Below, in pieces: positions 1 to 8,892 of a DNA stretch of 33,093 bases. Origin of the DNA: Desulfamplus magnetovallimortis (GTDB taxonomy: Bacteria > Desulfobacterota > Desulfobacteria > Desulfobacterales > Desulfobacteraceae); contig NZ_LT828540.1 of NCBI RefSeq assembly GCF_900170035.1, positions 758,524 to 791,616 of the forward strand, read 5' to 3'. Within the stretch, counting starts at the first letter, position 1. Each line of letters opens with the position of its first letter. The notes under the pieces are model-generated. The model was not told the origin of the DNA and did not search any database. It saw nothing but the letters and a program-made list of their open reading frames with translations. The position numbers and the translations under genes are program-made.

Positions 1-2964
1 AAAATTTGAGGCCAGAGTGGATAATTTATAAGCGATTGATTTATCTGTTTTTTCTATTTCATTGATAGCATCATCAATGGATTCAATATCAAGTGCAACA
101 ATTGCCTGTTTTAGGGTATCAACAATTTCCTGTGGCAATTTTTTTAAACCATTTTCTGGATGATTTGATAATGATTCTGCATCATCGGCAAGGTCATGAT
201 GATGCACCCTTAGTATGCTCTCTCCTTGAGTGTGCGAGCTATCTTCATAGAGATATCTTACACCAAGATGGCGGGAGATGGCATCAAAAATATCTTCAGT
301 CAAAAAAGGTTTTCGTATAAAATCATCACATCCAGCGGAGAGTATTTTATGCTTTTGCTCCTCAAAAACACTTGCTGTCAAGGCTATGATAACCACATTT
401 TTGCCATTATCACTTTCTTTGATACGCCGTGACGCTTCATAACCGTCCATAACAGGCATACGAATGTCCATCCATATTAAATGGGGATGCCATGACTCAA
501 ATAGCTCAACCCCCTTAAGGCCGTTTTCCGCAGATCTCACCTGAAACCCTGCATCAAGAAGCAGTTGCAGAAGCAGATTCCGATTTTCTGCATTATCCTC
601 AACCACAAGAATACGAAAATGTTTTTGACCAGGGGCAATTGTTGAGACCCTCAATGTTGAATTCTGCCTGGAGCTACCAAGGGATTCATCAACAGCAACA
701 GGCTGTAAAGGAATGGTAAACCTGAATGTTGAACCTTTGCCAACATCACTTTCAACGGTCAGCTCTCCTTCCATAAGGCGGACATATTCATGGGATATGG
801 AAAGCCCAAGCCCCGTACCCTCGCCTGATTTAATTCCGGTATTTGTCTGTGAAAATTTTTTGAAGAGTTTGGACTTTTCTTCAGGAGCAATCCCCACACC
901 AGTGTCACTCACTTCAAAAGTAATAAACATACTCATTTCTGATTCATTACTGACGCCTGATTTACTTCTGATGTCTGAGTCATTCCATCTTTCAGATTCA
1001 TTCCTTGTTTCCGGTAGATCCCTTTTTTCAGACTCTTCGCTCCATATTTCTGATACATTACTTTTTCCAGATTCACCACTGATTTCCGGAGAAAAACAGA
1101 AAAACTGACCACATACAACCCTTAAAGTCACACTCCCCTCTTTTGTGAATTTAACAGCATTACCGAACAGATTAATGAGAACCTGCTTAATTTTCTGCTG
1201 ATCCCCTTTAAACCACACAGGTATCTCAGGATCTATATCTTTTACAAGTTGAAGTTCTGTGTTAGCAAACCTTGGCTCAATCATTGAGATAACATCATTA
1301 ATAAGCTGATGTAAATCAAAAGTGGAAATTTCAATTTCAAGCCTGCCCGCTTCAATCTTTGACACCTCCAGGATATCATTGATCAAAACCAGCAGATGCA
1401 TGCCACTCTTTAAAATAATACCTGTTCTTTCCTTTTGTTCAGAGGTTGAGTTAGTGTCATTTTTCATTAACTGACTAAAGCCGATAATGGCATTAAGAGG
1501 AGTTCTGAGCTCATGACTCATATTGGCAAGAAAATTACTTTTTGCCATATTGGCAGCATCTGCCGCTTTTTCTGCTTCTTTTCTTATTCTTATCTCCTGT
1601 TCCAGCGCATTATAGGAGGTCTCAAGACGTGAGGTCATAATATTAAATGATTCGGCAAGCTCACCCAGCTCATCCCTGCGGTTTTGCACAAGATCAATCC
1701 TTCGGGAAAGATCTCCTTTGGTTACATCAACTGCCGCATCCCTTACAGATGAAATTGCACGTGCAAGTCGCCTTCCAAAGAAAAATGCCACAATAAGACT
1801 CAATAATATTACCGCTGAATATACCATTAACATTCTTTTTTGAAGTTGGTATATTGGCGCAAGCACATCTTCCACCTGATGACCCATAAAAAGCACCCAG
1901 TCAAGCTTATTAAGCGAATGTTTTGATGCATTTACTGGAAACAGTGATTGATCTTCCCCATTTTTTGAAAGGGATGCGCTGGCATAGATTTTATCCTTTG
2001 CCCCCTCCCTTACTATAGTGAATCCTTCGGGTGAAATGGACGTTTTAAAAAAGGGACGTTCCGAGACATCTTCAAGAAAATTGAAGGGTTTGCTTGAATA
2101 GATCAGTTTTCCGGAAACAGTGGCAACCTTTATATCTGTGTATTGATGCATCCTTGTTATGCTTTTTACTTCACGAAGAATCCAGTGTGAAGATATAACA
2201 GATTTTACTACACCAACAGGTTTATTATCAGGCTCATCCAAACGAACGGCAACTGTCATACCATAGCCCTGAACAGATGCATCATGTTGCACTTCTGAAA
2301 TATAGAGACCATTGGACATGGCCTGCTGCCACCACTGTTCATCTGACTGATCATAATCCTCAACTATATTGGACATGGCCACAACTGCCCCATACCTGTT
2401 TGTAAGAAATATCTCGGAAAAAATACTTTGGCCCCTGTTTCTCTCGTAAAAATAGATAAAGAGTTCCCTTAAAAGCATGGAAACGCTGTTATTTGAAAGC
2501 CTTGCAATAAGAGGAATAATATTGTCAACTGCAAGTTCTCCCTTCTCCTGGGGAGGCAGTGCCAACGTATCCCAGAATAAAACAGGATTAACCCTCCAGA
2601 TCTCCATGAGCCTCGTTATATCGCCGGCACCTGTACCATGCTGTAATGAAGTGGTTGTTTTTCTCCATAAGATATCATTATCACGAATATAGTCATGGGG
2701 TGTTATCATACTGTCAAACCGTCTGTTTGAATCATCAAGATACTCCATGATTTCCGGCCTTAAGGCAATGGTCTGGAGAGACTCCACCTTAAAGGAGAGA
2801 ATATTTACGATCTGATCATGCATCACCTGGGCCATTCGTACCATATTCCGGCCATATGATATCTCAAGGGCATTACTGCTGACATTAATAGAATAGAGAC
2901 CCAACACAGAAAGCAGCAGCAATAAAAAAAACACGAGAATGGAAATTTTATTCCTTATACGCAT
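1..2964 (-). CDS. Membrane hybrid sensor histidine kinase with receiver domain (3' end cut by window)
   Basis: The frame is open for 988 codons to the window edge with no stop, so the C-terminus is missing. It has an N-terminal membrane helix (about residues 6-26), a large extracytoplasmic sensor region (about 30-370, Cache-like by position; inferred), a second helix (377-397), HAMP, a HisKA domain with H-box NMSHELRTPLN (His ~484), an HATPase domain (N-box with NLFGNAVKF ~602, DTGVGI ~686, GEGTGLGLS ~713) and a receiver domain with phospho-acceptor Asp ~833 in WMDIRMPVMDGYEA and RKPF lysine ~884. The tail resembles the short helical end common after receivers in this kinase type. A Ser/Glu/Asn-rich insertion of about 55 residues (about 618-672) sits inside the HATPase domain. 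ATG 2964 is preferred; ATG 2994 is in frame but lies inside a dispersed repeat. Ligand unknown. Confidence 0.93.
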   Translation of the reverse strand, partial: MRIRNKISILVFFLLLLLSVLGLYSINVSSNALEISYGRNMVRMAQVMHDQIVNILSFKVESLQTIALRPEIMEYLDDSNRRFDSMITPHDYIRDNDILWRKTTTSLQHGTGAGDITRLMEIWRVNPVLFWDTLALPPQEKGELAVDNIIPLIARLSNNSVSMLLRELFIYFYERNRGQSIFSEIFLTNRYGAVVAMSNIVEDYDQSDEQWWQQAMSNGLYISEVQHDASVQGYGMTVAVRLDEPDNKPVGVVKSVISSHWILREVKSITRMHQYTDIKVATVSGKLIYSSKPFNFLEDVSERPFFKTSISPEGFTIVREGAKDKIYASASLSKNGEDQSLFPVNASKHSLNKLDWVLFMGHQVEDVLAPIYQLQKRMLMVYSAVILLSLIVAFFFGRRLARAISSVRDAAVDVTKGDLSRRIDLVQNRRDELGELAESFNIMTSRLETSYNALEQEIRIRKEAEKAADAANMAKSNFLANMSHELRTPLNAIIGFSQLMKNDTNSTSEQKERTGIILKSGMHLLVLINDILEVSKIEAGRLEIEISTFDLHQLINDVISMIEPRFANTELQLVKDIDPEIPVWFKGDQQKIKQVLINLFGNAVKFTKEGSVTLRVVCGQFFCFSPEISGESGKSNVSEIWSEESEKRDLPETRNESERWNDSDIRSKSGVSNESEMSMFITFEVSDTGVGIAPEEKSKLFKKFSQTNTGIKSGEGTGLGLSISHEYVRLMEGELTVESDVGKGSTFRFTIPLQPVAVDESLGSSRQNSTLRVSTIAPGQKHFRILVVEDNAENRNLLLQLLLDAGFQVRSAENGLKGVELFESWHPHLIWMDIRMPVMDGYEASRRIKESDNGKNVVIIALTASVFEEQKHKILSAGCDDFIRKPFLTEDIFDAISRHLGVRYLYEDSSHTQGESILRVHHHDLADDAESLSNHPENGLKKLPQEIVDTLKQAIVALDIESIDDAINEIEKTDKSIAYKLSTLASNF

Positions 2965-2970
2965 CTTGAA

Positions 2971-3040
2971 TTTTACCGTGAAAATGACTATCATTTTTAC
3001 ATTTGGGCATGGTTAGTACACAATTAATCATACCTGTTTA
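2971..3040 (-). repeat. Dispersed repeat family F, copy 1 (possible IS end remnant)
   Basis: About 70 bp that match 25477-25543 in inverted orientation, best over the 13-mer ATTTTCACGGTAA and the preceding CCCAAAT-TAAAAATG-TAG stretch, with scattered transitions. It lies directly upstream of the kinase start at 2964 and contains the alternative ATG at 2994. The pattern resembles terminal sequences of IS21-type elements (recollection, not verified), and no transposase is nearby. Confidence 0.6.
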
Positions 3041-4463: not shown

Positions 4464-6383
4464 TCAGGCAGTTTTAAGGTTTTCAAGCTCTTCCCACCTT
4501 TCATAAAGATTATTCACAGTTTCCTGGGCATCATTTAGCATGGAACATACCTTTGCAAGCTCTTCAGGATTATCTGTTACATCTGGTTCCTGGATTCTTG
4601 ATTGGAGATTTTCAAGCTGTGCCTCTGCCTCCATTATTTTTTCTTCCATCTGCTCAAGCTCAAATTTGTGCTTGTAGGAAAATGCCTTGCCCTTTTTGTT
4701 TTTACTGCTACTTCCATTTTTATGTTTAGCAGCTTTAAGAGTGTCAGGATTATCGCTGTTTTTCACACTTTTTGAAGTTGCCTTTTTTGATTCTTTCTGT
4801 CTCTCAAGGCATTGCCTGTAATCGGCAAAAATATAAGCCCCTCCAATACCGTCAAGATAGAGCACAGAAGTGGCAATCCTGTCCAGCAAAAACCTGTCAT
4901 GGGTGACAATGACAACAGCTCCAGGAAACTCAAGAAGACTCTCTTCAAGGACTTCAAGGGAGGGAATATCAAGATCATTTGTTGGCTCATCAAGAAGCAG
5001 AATGTCAGCAGGTTTAAGCATAAGCTCGGCAATAAGTATCCTTGCCTTTTCTCCACCTGAAAGTCGCCTTATGGGCAGAGTTAGCTGATCTGGTGTAAAT
5101 AGAAATTTTTTTGCCCATGATACCACATGAAGGCTTTTGCCCTTGTAAACAACAGCATCTCCTGCCGGGCTTAAGGCATCTTTTAGCGTCATATCGGGGT
5201 CAAGGCGGGATCTGTTCTGGTCAAAAACAGCAATTTTAAGATTTTCAGCACGTTTTACAGTACCTTCATCAGGTTCCACAATATTTTCAAGGATCTGCAT
5301 GAATGTGGTTTTTCCACTGCCGTTTTCCCCCATAAGACCAAGACGCGTGCCTGGAAGCAGCTTTAAAGTTATATTTCTGAAAAGAGTTCTATTACCGGCA
5401 CTATTATTACCGACACTATTAAATATATTTTTATCAGGAGTACTCTCCCCATCGTTAATCCTGTTGGACAAAGCAACACTTTTTCCAACATTATGGCAAA
5501 CAAGAAGCTGCCTTGTTTTTCTGTCAGTTGTATGAAAATCAATGTCAACCGTGCCGGTCTGACGATTACGATGTTTGACTCTTGATAGTTCCAGCCTAAG
5601 TTGCTCTGCCTGATCAATCCGGTATTTGGCCTTGGTTGTACGTGCTTTGGCTCCCTGGTTGAGCCATGCGGTTTCCCGTCTCATCTTATTTGAGAGAATC
5701 TCTTCCTGTTTTAACTGTGCATCAAGAAGAGTTTCTCTCTGCTGCATGAAGTGCTTATAGCCTCCGTTGGCTGCAAGATAACCTTCGGGATAGCACTTTC
5801 CTATCTCCATGATCCTGTGACAGACATTTTCAAGAAAACATCGGTCATGACTTACCACCACAAAGGCAAAATCGCCACCACCAAGAATCTCTTCAAGCCA
5901 CAGAATTCCATTGATATCAAGATGGTTGGTAGGTTCGTCAAGAAGCAACAGATCAGGCTCAAGGCAAAGGGCGCGGGAAATTGCAAGTCGCTTTTTCCAG
6001 CCACCGGACAATGTTTTGCATAGGGCATGTTCGTTTTCAAATCCAGATCTTCCCAGCATTCGCTTTATTCGCCTGAATTTTTCCTGGTCATCAACAGGCT
6101 CATGGGATAGAGCTTCCATAAGTGTCTCTTCAATGCTTTTGTCAGGCTCAAGCTCATCTTCCTGGGGAAGATATACAAGGCGGGTCAACTGCTTCAGATA
6201 TCTCTCTCCGCCATCGGCTGAAGCTCTGTCTGCAACAAGCTTGAGAAGAGTTGACTTTCCGCTGCCATTACTGCCTATCAGGCCAAGTTTCTCTAAAGCT
6301 TTAACATTAAAGGAGAGATCTTCAAAGAGATTATCTTCACCATAGGTTTTATAGAGAGATTTATAACTGAATAAAAGTGTCAT
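4464..6383 (-). CDS. uup: ABC-F family ATPase, Uup type
   Basis: 639 residues with two soluble ABC cassettes and no membrane segments, the ABC-F arrangement of ribosome-associated ATPases. Cassette 1: Walker A GSNGSGKST (37-45), signature LSGGWKKRLA, Walker B LLLLDEPTNHLD. Cassette 2: Walker A GENGSGKTT (about 351-359), signature LSGGEKARIL (about 439), Walker B LLLLDEPTNDLD. A lysine-rich linker leads to a C-terminal coiled coil (about 565-638), the hallmark of Uup, which is linked to DNA-structure or ribosome functions in other bacteria. An Asn/Asp/Ser-rich insertion (about 305-330) interrupts the start of cassette 2. ATG 6383 has no clear Shine-Dalgarno sequence. The lipoprotein gene follows after 31 nt. 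Confidence 0.93.
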   Translation of the reverse strand: MTLLFSYKSLYKTYGEDNLFEDLSFNVKALEKLGLIGSNGSGKSTLLKLVADRASADGGERYLKQLTRLVYLPQEDELEPDKSIEETLMEALSHEPVDDQEKFRRIKRMLGRSGFENEHALCKTLSGGWKKRLAISRALCLEPDLLLLDEPTNHLDINGILWLEEILGGGDFAFVVVSHDRCFLENVCHRIMEIGKCYPEGYLAANGGYKHFMQQRETLLDAQLKQEEILSNKMRRETAWLNQGAKARTTKAKYRIDQAEQLRLELSRVKHRNRQTGTVDIDFHTTDRKTRQLLVCHNVGKSVALSNRINDGESTPDKNIFNSVGNNSAGNRTLFRNITLKLLPGTRLGLMGENGSGKTTFMQILENIVEPDEGTVKRAENLKIAVFDQNRSRLDPDMTLKDALSPAGDAVVYKGKSLHVVSWAKKFLFTPDQLTLPIRRLSGGEKARILIAELMLKPADILLLDEPTNDLDIPSLEVLEESLLEFPGAVVIVTHDRFLLDRIATSVLYLDGIGGAYIFADYRQCLERQKESKKATSKSVKNSDNPDTLKAAKHKNGSSSKNKKGKAFSYKHKFELEQMEEKIMEAEAQLENLQSRIQEPDVTDNPEELAKVCSMLNDAQETVNNLYERWEELENLKTA

Positions 6384-6710: not shown

Positions 6711-6750
6711 AAAAAAAACCCCTTGCAGTAAAGCTTTGCAAAGGGTTTTT
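6711..6750 (-). terminator. Rho-independent terminator after the selenoprotein gene
   Basis: On the minus strand AAAAACCCTTTGCA pairs with TGCAAGGGGTTTTT around a loop of about 9 nt with one mismatch, then the T run continues. On the plus strand the T run is shorter. It ends the transcript that carries the selenoprotein and probably the upstream ABC1-like kinase. Confidence 0.8.
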
Positions 6751-6802: not shown

Positions 6803-6821
6803 GATCAGCTTACAGCCAATC
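6803..6821 (-). promoter_or_regulatory. SECIS-like hairpin following the second UGA (codon 73)
   Basis: On the minus strand GATTGGCT and AGCTGATC form an 8-bp stem (two G-U pairs) closed by the loop GUA. The stem starts 13 nt after the UGA at 6835-6837 and the loop begins after 21 nt. A G as first loop base and this spacing fit known bacterial SECIS elements. It lies past the stop codon, which a bacterial SECIS near a C-terminal Sec codon would require. Confidence 0.6.
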
Positions 6822-6825
6822 TTTT

Positions 6826-7053
6826 TTACACACGTCAGCTTTTGCCGTTGAATCCTATGGTTACCTCTCCTTCCTTTAGAATCACCGGTACGTTTCTGGC
6901 ACCACCGGAAATTTCAAGCATGGTATCAAGATTGGAAGGCTCCATTATGACATCAAAATAACTGAATTCGATATTCTGTTTTGTGAATGCTTCACGAGCA
7001 GCCGTTGTGTGGGGTCAGCTACTTTTGCCGAAAATCTTGTTCTTGCTTTCCAT
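6826..7053 (-). CDS. Uxx-star-like glutaredoxin-type selenoprotein with two in-frame UGA (Sec) codons
   Basis: 75-residue protein read through TGA at codon 13 (7015-7017) and codon 73 (6835-6837), stopping at TAA 6826-6828. The start is firm: AAAGGAGAG lies just upstream of ATG 7053. N-terminus: MESKNKIFGKSSUPHTTAAR, where U sits in the position of the first redox Cys of a thioredoxin/glutaredoxin fold. The middle has IEFSYFDV and the cis-Pro-type NVPVILKEGEVTIGF; the end is GKSURV-stop, i.e. U-x-x-stop. This fits what I recall as the Uxx-star family of glutaredoxin-like (seleno)proteins. SECIS-like hairpins follow each UGA (6983-6995 and 6803-6821) and a strong terminator follows the gene. 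It lies 105 nt behind the ABC1-like kinase on the same strand. Likely role: thiol/selenol redox chemistry; substrate unknown. The alternative, a Cys-protein gene decayed to two stops, is unlikely given the intact frame and signals. Confidence 0.85.
6983..6995 (-). promoter_or_regulatory. SECIS-like hairpin following the first UGA (codon 13)
   Basis: On the minus strand GTGAA-GCA-TTCAC is a perfect 5-bp stem with a 3-nt loop whose first base is G, beginning 19 nt after the UGA at 7015-7017. It lies inside the coding sequence, as bacterial SECIS elements do. The stem is short, so a larger alternative fold cannot be excluded. Confidence 0.5.
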
Positions 7054-7158
7054 TTGCACTCTCCTTTTTTAAATGTTCAAAGTGTCAGAATTGCCATCTT
7101 CCGAGTGAGTTACTTGAAAATGGCACAATCTGATTTCATACAGGGTTCACAAGCCTTA

Positions 7159-8892
7159 CTATACCCTGACCATATCCCATCCAAATTTGAGAATAGCCTT
7201 TTGAACATCAAAAAACAATGAAATGCTGTATTTATAAAAATTCCATAACTCATGAATAATCATGCCCTGAAGCCTGAAATGGGCAACATCACTTGCAAGC
7301 CTTAAAACAGCAGCAAGAACTACATATTCATCCCTGTCAAAGTCTGGATCAATGTCAGCAAGCACTCCCTTGAGGGTTACCAGTGATTTTTCAAAAACAA
7401 GAAGATCAGGAGAAAAAACAACTCCAAGATACATGATCTGTTCAATCAGGGATTCCACAGAGGAGAGTACGCCGGTTATACATGTACCCCTTGATTCAAC
7501 ATTTTCGGAAACTATATCCATGACCTTTTTTCCAAGCTCTGAATCCGAAGTTATTGTCCCTCCGGACATAATATCTGCGGCATAGTATATCAAGGTTGAA
7601 TTGCCGGCTATCAATCCTGAAATCATTAAAACCACTGCCATACGCTCCAGGCGGCTTAGACGGCCTACCATTGCCCAGTCATAGAAGATTATCTCTGGTT
7701 TGTTGTCCCTGAACCGGTAAGCTATATTACCTGCATGTGGGTCACCGTGAAAGATGCTTTCACGCTCAAGGTCAATAATGGGTCTGAGAATACAAAGCTG
7801 GGTCACCTTTTTTGCAATGGAACGCCTCTGTTTTAAAGAGAGATGGGACACATCGGTGATTTTGGTGCCGTCAAGGCGTGTCATAACTGTGACATTCGGA
7901 GTTGAAAAAGGCATTTTTTGGGGTATATATACAGAAGGTTCAGCACTGTAATATTTAGATACAGCCTCAAGATTCTTTTGCTCAAGATGCAGATCCACCT
8001 CATTTTGGAGCAGCCAGCTCACCTGGTCAATGGTACCTTTAAACTGAAAATTTCCAAGCCCCCACTCATCTTTGTTTTCATCAAGATACTCTCCAAGGTG
8101 CCCCCACAAAGCAAGTTCGGCTGCCATGTTTTTCTTTATGAATGGCTTGACCATTTTACAAACAACAGGTTTTGGGCTCTTTAAAAAATCATTGTTTTTA
8201 CCAGGGATTTTTTTACTGTTCATTTGAGTTGGCAATTCAATGTACATTTTAGCCGGAATAACAGCACAGACACTTGCTTCTGCAAGAATATTCTCCTCCA
8301 GCTCAAGATATAGAGAGCGGCACTGATCTGATTGAGCCGGATGGCTATTTTTTCCATGTACAAGATCGTCAACAAGAACACCTGAAAGATCCTTGAATGT
8401 AACTGTTGCCATGTTGTCTTCAAGATCAACAAGTGATTTTTTAAAGTCTTCTTCAACTCCAGGGCTTCTACCTATGATCTGACTTAATTTATGGAGAGTT
8501 GGCATATCCTTTACTAATGTGCATATGCGCTTGCCAGAGTCTGCATCCATGGGAAGCGTGAGCTGATCAACAATTTTGTCAACAATCCGCTCTCTGGAAA
8601 GGTGAGTTATAAGATAAACAGCACCTTCCAGAACAACTTTACGGAACTTGGCATACTGGGGCGGGAGAAAACCATCCACGCCTGCTGAAACAAGCATGGT
8701 TCTGATTACAGAAGGCAGATTTCCTTTTGAGATATCGTCCGAGACTATTTCCATTGTACGCTGAAAAACAACCGATCTGGGCGGAGTTTTCCCATCAATC
8801 AGTGACAGAACTTCCAAATATTTTGAAAAAGACAAATTGGCATCTGTGTTTTCAGAGGTCTCATTCTTCTTCTCTTCTGTGGTATTTATCAT
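7159..8892 (-). CDS. ABC1/UbiB-family atypical kinase-like protein
   Basis: 577 residues. The C-terminal two thirds match the ABC1 (UbiB/AarF/COQ8) kinase-like family: a candidate ATP-binding Lys ~244 in VVCKMVKP, a Glu-containing helix (NEVDLHLEQKNLEAV) in place of the family ELDF-EAxN motif, the catalytic-loop equivalent HGDPHAGN (about 380-387) and the metal-binding DFG equivalent YDWAMVG (about 402-408). I do not see a KxGQ motif, the family signature before the kinase core, so this is a divergent member. Other ABC1 proteins act in quinone or isoprenoid-lipid metabolism; the substrate here is unknown. The first 150 residues are helical and unrecognised. ATG 8892 has AGGGA 8 nt upstream. 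The selenoprotein gene follows after 105 nt. Confidence 0.85.
   Translation of the reverse strand: MINTTEEKKNETSENTDANLSFSKYLEVLSLIDGKTPPRSVVFQRTMEIVSDDISKGNLPSVIRTMLVSAGVDGFLPPQYAKFRKVVLEGAVYLITHLSRERIVDKIVDQLTLPMDADSGKRICTLVKDMPTLHKLSQIIGRSPGVEEDFKKSLVDLEDNMATVTFKDLSGVLVDDLVHGKNSHPAQSDQCRSLYLELEENILAEASVCAVIPAKMYIELPTQMNSKKIPGKNNDFLKSPKPVVCKMVKPFIKKNMAAELALWGHLGEYLDENKDEWGLGNFQFKGTIDQVSWLLQNEVDLHLEQKNLEAVSKYYSAEPSVYIPQKMPFSTPNVTVMTRLDGTKITDVSHLSLKQRRSIAKKVTQLCILRPIIDLERESIFHGDPHAGNIAYRFRDNKPEIIFYDWAMVGRLSRLERMAVVLMISGLIAGNSTLIYYAADIMSGGTITSDSELGKKVMDIVSENVESRGTCITGVLSSVESLIEQIMYLGVVFSPDLLVFEKSLVTLKGVLADIDPDFDRDEYVVLAAVLRLASDVAHFRLQGMIIHELWNFYKYSISLFFDVQKAILKFGWDMVRV

Follow-up and report, generated by a model that had tools for sequence, protein, structure and literature searches.

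A stretch of 33,093 nucleotides from Desulfamplus magnetovallimortis (contig NZ_LT828540.1, positions 758,524 to 791,616; hereafter the window) carries a 75-residue gene on its minus strand that very probably belongs to UXX-star selenoprotein family 1, also called Distant Grx-like protein 1 (Grx, glutaredoxin), with selenocysteine (Sec, U) predicted at codons 13 and 73. Read from 7053 to 6826 with UGA as Sec, the product is MESKNKIFGKSSUPHTTAAREAF...VTIGFNGKSURV, followed by TAA at 6826–6828. The protein is devoid of Cys, and the two U are its sole chalcogen redox residues. Its tail shows the UXX-star arrangement, in which Sec is followed by two codons and then the stop. A preliminary description of this DNA had given the frame, both UGA codons and the stop with exact coordinates, and had also noted the ribosome binding site upstream of the ATG. 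The local features are as follows.

7059–7064, minus strand: ribosome binding site GGAGAG, 5' of the ATG at 7051–7053, read from the sequence
6826–7053, minus strand: UXX-star family 1 gene, 75 residues, frame read with UGA as U
7015–7017, minus strand: UGA codon 13, predicted Sec that opens the UPHT (UxxT) motif; Cys in some relatives
6988–7000, minus strand: predicted first selenocysteine insertion sequence (SECIS) hairpin, within the coding sequence, from wobble-site pairing in relatives
6835–6837, minus strand: UGA codon 73, predicted tail Sec of UXX-stop
6803–6821, minus strand: predicted second SECIS hairpin, entirely 3' of the stop codon, from covariation and folding energy
6714–6750, minus strand: probable intrinsic terminator hairpin with a T-rich 3' arm (−17.3 kcal/mol, z −3.37)

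Profile searches were run with Cys substituted for Sec. The window protein matched the NCBIfam family NF041114 ('UXX-star selenoprotein family 1') with 97.7 bits against a cut-off of 72 (E 3.3e-28), and residues 7–75 aligned to positions 3–70 of the 70-position profile, extending to its last position. The wider NCBIfam family NF041212 (80.2 bits, cut-off 66) and the Pfam family Glutaredoxin PF00462 (40.8 bits, cut-off 22.9, E 2.6e-10) were also matched above their cut-offs. Because the frame matches both NF041114 and Pfam Glutaredoxin at these E values, it is not a product of chance. The family name given in the preliminary description was right, while its term "thioredoxin-like" gives way to glutaredoxin-like. 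The protein is also related at the profile level to NF041211 ('UXX-star (seleno)protein family 2'), with 55.9 bits, below the cut-off of 100; a 2026 review lists that family with one Sec and the motif GxGU (PMC13188914). Table 1 of the same review gives NF041114 the motif UxxT and two Sec, citing Zhang and Gladyshev 2008, and a 2022 review likewise assigns UxxT to Distant Grx-like protein 1 (PMC9312934). The passages of Zhang and Gladyshev 2008 consulted (PMC2398784) do not spell out UXX-star family 1. Since the table lists NF041114 with two Sec, the dual-Sec protein is already known, and the pair of Sec anticipated in the preliminary description is not new. The window gene is therefore a new example within a catalogued two-Sec family, not a new kind of protein. 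It shares with NF041114 the full-length match above cut-off, the UxxT motif, two Sec and the UXX-stop tail. Nothing essential differs; the genes found next to most relatives read are missing beside the window copy, whose first hairpin is weak.

The source genome (6.68 Mb, 97.3% complete) encodes the machinery for Sec incorporation. The search for selA, selB, selC and selD proposed in the preliminary description returned all four over cut-off: selA with 595.6 bits, selB with 361.5 bits, selD with 370.4 bits and one in-frame TGA, and the tRNA-Sec gene selC with a score of 76.6. The in-frame TGA in selD (G000:C7:116941-117864, locus L002) suggests that this selenophosphate synthetase, too, is probably a selenoprotein. 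Among 58 related genomes, selA was over cut-off in 54, including 17 of the 18 with a UXX-star gene; the exception, G014, is 70% complete. Because selA is so widespread among these relatives, its co-occurrence with UXX-star is uninformative.

NF041114 was found above cut-off in these 18 of the 58 relatives and in 171 of the 389 genomes sampled from the class; in both surveys, 0 of 14 control genomes exceeded it. For codon-level reading, 42 loci over the cut-off were combined with the window, and three of these 43 sequences (L062, L069 and L075) were dropped, as they have no in-frame TAA or TAG downstream and two TGA were reported inside each. The resulting 40 sequences (the window and 39 loci) are the best-scoring family matches and not a random sample; 12 loci below the cut-off (L023–L034) lie outside the set. 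Site 1 (codon 13) is UGA in 38 of the 40 and Cys in two (L053 and L064), and site 2 (codon 73) is UGA in all 40. The distance from the site-2 UGA to the end is two codons throughout, except in L064 and L073, where it is three. The same two UGAs are seen in loci of 37 further genomes within the set read, and the sequence is conserved beyond both. In the protein alignment, which comprises 35 of the 40 sequences, the invariant positions include the two sites (Sec and Cys merged), G9, K10, P14, T16, R20, P56 and G70. The site-1 motif [U/C]PxT is present in all 39 family proteins, and in 36 of the 39, the window protein included, neither Cys nor Sec occurs anywhere but at these sites.

Homologues with Cys were sought in genome contigs with an alignment as the query and a single pattern. 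This pattern demanded Cys at site 1, so the scan is silent on how common Sec is at that site. It yielded 35 loci, whose record titles name Desulfobacterales, other Deltaproteobacteria, Acidobacteria, Anaeromyxobacter and others. Four of them (L107–L110) resemble ordinary glutaredoxins; the remaining 31 Cys13 loci are L076–L106, of which L076 repeats L053 over the compared stretch. The tail UGA is kept in 29 of the 31, and Cys (CGV-stop, L095) or Ser (L097) takes its place in the other two. Three codons follow the tail UGA in L079 and L096 of this set as well. A scan of genome contigs with the single protein as the query confirmed no relative. Given the Cys13 loci and L095, Cys counterparts exist at both positions: at site 13 in L053, L064 and L076–L106, and at site 73 in L095. 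The sel genes, the Cys and Sec homologues and the conservation past both UGAs agree with the Sec decoding that the preliminary description had proposed, including the aligned Cys residues it had suggested looking for, and none of the outcomes that it had named as refuting was encountered. As a separate observation, L097, which combines Cys at site 1 with Ser in place of the tail Sec and ends TSGV-UGA, is possibly a Sec-free or inactive form.

By these counts, the tail Sec appears to vary less than the N-terminal one in the sets read. Two points weigh against this view. The tail site is Cys in L095 and Ser in L097, and the constancy may be overstated, since the loci are those with the highest family scores and none of the searches targeted a Sec13/Cys73 combination. 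The constancy suggests which Sec is fixed, directing experiments to the tail. The literature searched contained no statement that the tail Sec is more conserved, nor one on the LOG and phosphotransferase system (PTS) neighbours described below; as the likeliest source, Haft and Tolstoy 2025, lay outside the search, priority is claimed for neither observation.

The AlphaFold2 model of the protein (pLDDT 94.1) comprises four strands and two helices (residues 14–25 and 39–49) without a C-terminal helix, and residues 71, 73 and 74 are assigned to strand or bridge. Foldseek placed Archaeoglobus Grx-1 (3ic4; template modelling (TM) score 0.80) and the cGrx1 entries (7c10/7c12; 0.77) as the best matches, with NrdH (1h75; 0.75) at rank 22; the E value was below 0.001 for two matches only. 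The model is thus similar in fold to dithiol glutaredoxins and NrdH redoxins, with TM scores of 0.75–0.80 by query length. In the profile search, site 1 fell on the first Cys in both 3ic4 and cGrx1, which places the first redox residue at the same position in the window protein and these dithiol glutaredoxins. Unlike the glutaredoxins and NrdH, the window protein lacks the second motif Cys and, in the model, the C-terminal helix, and it bears an extra tail Sec. The CxxC or CxxS active site of classical glutaredoxins is likewise absent, with UPHT and no Cys in its stead, whereas the classical glutaredoxin fold is recovered both by PF00462 and by the match to 3ic4.

These features lead us to propose, with the odds about even, that the protein is a minimal glutaredoxin-like oxidoreductase in which the tail Sec resolves Sec13. 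Its fold would be of the glutaredoxin/NrdH type reduced to a minimum, Cys-free and lacking the C-terminal helix that is usual there. Sec13, positioned where helix 1 begins, would attack a disulfide or another oxidised substrate, and Sec73 on the tail would stand in for the missing second Cys of CxxC as the resolving partner. The product would be an intramolecular Se–Se bond (Se–S in the Cys13 forms), which some reductase would then reduce. Since UxxT offers no second redox residue and the protein has no Cys, as in 36 of the 39 family proteins, the tail Sec73 is the simplest partner for Sec13 or Cys13. In thioredoxin reductases with a C-terminal Sec, the Sec near the C-terminus is a possible partner of the N-terminal redox site. 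No homology to those enzymes was seen, and 75 residues are too few for their flavin and NADPH domains. A Cys-free protein with only two Sec would lend itself well to the question of whether diselenide redoxins occur in nature.

The main rival to the redox proposal, which we regard as unlikely but serious, is that the dual-Sec protein binds a soft metal or metalloid (e.g. Hg, Cu or As) between its selenols, without disulfide turnover. Two Sec in a protein without Cys, and a UxxT motif without the usual second redox residue, would suit such a role, and the tabulating review itself suggests that these Sec might bind metal or serve other substrates (PMC13188914). The conserved gene neighbours in relatives, moreover, point to no redox partner; this and the review's suggestion both count against disulfide turnover. 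On the other side, the fold matches are glutaredoxins and NrdH, [U/C]PxT occupies the usual catalytic place in 39 of 39 proteins, and no metal gene was recognised in the 14 largest neighbour clusters, which were inspected by reading without a family search.

Each UGA would be decoded by SelB with a hairpin of its own, the second of which lies in the 3' untranslated stretch. This hairpin (GATTGGC-TGTAA-GCTGATC) begins 13 nt after UGA73, past the TAA, and its TGTAA loop lies 20 nt after the UGA. It folds with −7.7 kcal/mol (z −1.89; 12 of 200 shuffles were as good), and a longer stretch with −10.9 kcal/mol (z −1.34). Across 39 distinct sequences, 88.4% of the cells in a six-pair helix are paired, compared with 70.9% in shuffled and 11–55% in slid versions, although the structure was drawn from the same alignment on which it was counted and is thereby favoured over the slid versions. 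Compensatory changes affect both sides of all six pairs, and covariation scores 0.518 versus 0.203. A script with preset limits (loop 16–37 nt after the UGA, G in one of the first two loop places), which are those of the published bacterial model as given in the review (PMC13188914), accepted a hairpin in 38 of the 40 sequences, with loops starting 16–21 nt after the UGA, and none in L057 or L064. The covariation together with the folding energy in the window supports a predicted SECIS element for UGA73.

This evidence bears on the reading that only UGA13 encodes Sec, with UGA73 as a true stop after residue 72. Very few codons follow UGA73, and the final stop is itself UGA in 14 of the 40 sequences, so that UGA does terminate in this family. 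Such truncation is nevertheless very improbable in view of the persistence of the tail UGA in the 40 sequences and in 29 of the 31 Cys13 homologues, each time with two or three codons behind it, the Cys at this site in L095, and the covarying hairpin at SECIS distance past the stop. That two nonsense mutations or sequencing errors disrupted a glutaredoxin-like gene, as two in-frame stops under the standard code might imply, can be dismissed, given the recurrence of both UGAs in 37 other genomes and the conserved sequence past each.

In the 14 genes that end in UGA (UXX-UGA; L009, L010, L013, L016, L017, L019, L055, L059, L061, L065, L067, L068, L072 and L074), the stop lies three codons past the Sec UGA and 9 nt closer to the hairpin. 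It lies short of the 16 nt minimum, and this may explain why it is read as a stop. Sec UGA and stop UGA in these genes are apparently told apart by their distance to one hairpin, and the pair, three codons apart, provides a ready test of SECIS spacing as the determinant of UGA meaning. Taken jointly, the propositions that the tail Sec is essential and the N-terminal one exchangeable, that the protein is a Cys-free redoxin with a 13–73 diselenide, and that spacing alone sets UGA meaning in the UXX-UGA sisters form a tentative picture that we consider somewhat more apt to fail than to hold.

The predicted first hairpin consists of the stem TGCT/AGCA and the loop CGTGA, located 14 nt and 18 nt downstream of UGA13, respectively. 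It spans codons A18-A19-R20-E21-A22, with third codon positions facing each other in two of its four pairs. In the sequences with Sec at codon 13 (U13), the pair between the third positions of codons 19 and 21 (19.3:21.3) is Watson–Crick in 37 of 38 (T-A in 29 and C-G in 5 of the 35 in which these codons encode A and E); at 18.3:22.3, 36 of 38 have a standard pair, of six types in all. When the 22.3 letters were reshuffled within U13 (20,000 shuffles), a mean of 20.1 and a maximum of 30 of 38 were paired. The comparison set with Cys at codon 13 (C13) comprises 32 distinct sequences, half of them without A22; 19.3:21.3 pairs in 16 of 32 and 18.3:22.3 in 13 of 32, or in 6 of the 16 that keep A22. 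These counts indicate much more regular pairing of the synonymous sites in sequences with a UGA to be decoded.

Other observations speak against a functional first hairpin. Among C13 sequences that keep A19 and E21, 11 of 18 still pair 19.3:21.3, which makes this control only partial, and the C13 set is of different lineage. The sequences also share ancestry, so that related ones are not independent. In the window, the hairpin folds with −3.2 kcal/mol (z +0.64), no better than shuffles, and a longer stretch, which folds otherwise, with −5.8 kcal/mol (z +0.46). Neither value reaches the −7.5 that the published bacterial SECIS model, as cited in the review, sets as its limit (PMC13188914). A different hairpin in this stretch outscores the predicted first hairpin by simple pairing. 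The first SECIS hairpin is accordingly a prediction with strong comparative support that is weak in the window itself. The gene adds to its family a clear case of dual Sec, in which comparison of sequences supports both recoding signals.

In the window, the UXX-star gene is flanked by a UbiB-like gene (7159–8892, minus strand; best match below cut-off) on one side and by an ABC-F-type ATPase gene (4464–6383, minus strand; best match Uup, below cut-off) on the other. The neighbours of the relatives were surveyed in loci carrying at most 1.5 kb of flank, some ending at contig ends (L005–L074). A TIGR00730 (LOG-type) gene lies downstream in 25 of 38 loci; L007 alone was searched against families, and the other 24 were grouped with it by BLAST. 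Upstream, on the opposite strand, are HPr-like (22 of 38) and PtsI-like (21 of 38) genes, named by reading their sequences. None of the LOG, HPr-like or PtsI-like genes stands beside the UXX-star gene in the window, and a search of the source genome with a LOG query, run without a positive control, gave no match.

A consensus scan of the window reported no promoter on the minus strand, and a pattern scan reported no terminator; the 6714–6750 hairpin was presumably missed because its 9-nt loop exceeds the 8 nt that the scan permits. The Rfam search of the window returned 0 matches, and inspection of the list of other UGA-interrupted frames, without a family search, revealed nothing judged noteworthy. 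At the start of the window (1–2994, minus strand), an open-ended frame of 998 residues encodes, by reading of its sequence, a sensor histidine kinase with a response-regulator part. Its ATPase domain contains an odd Ser/Glu-rich insert made of repeated SE/ES units.
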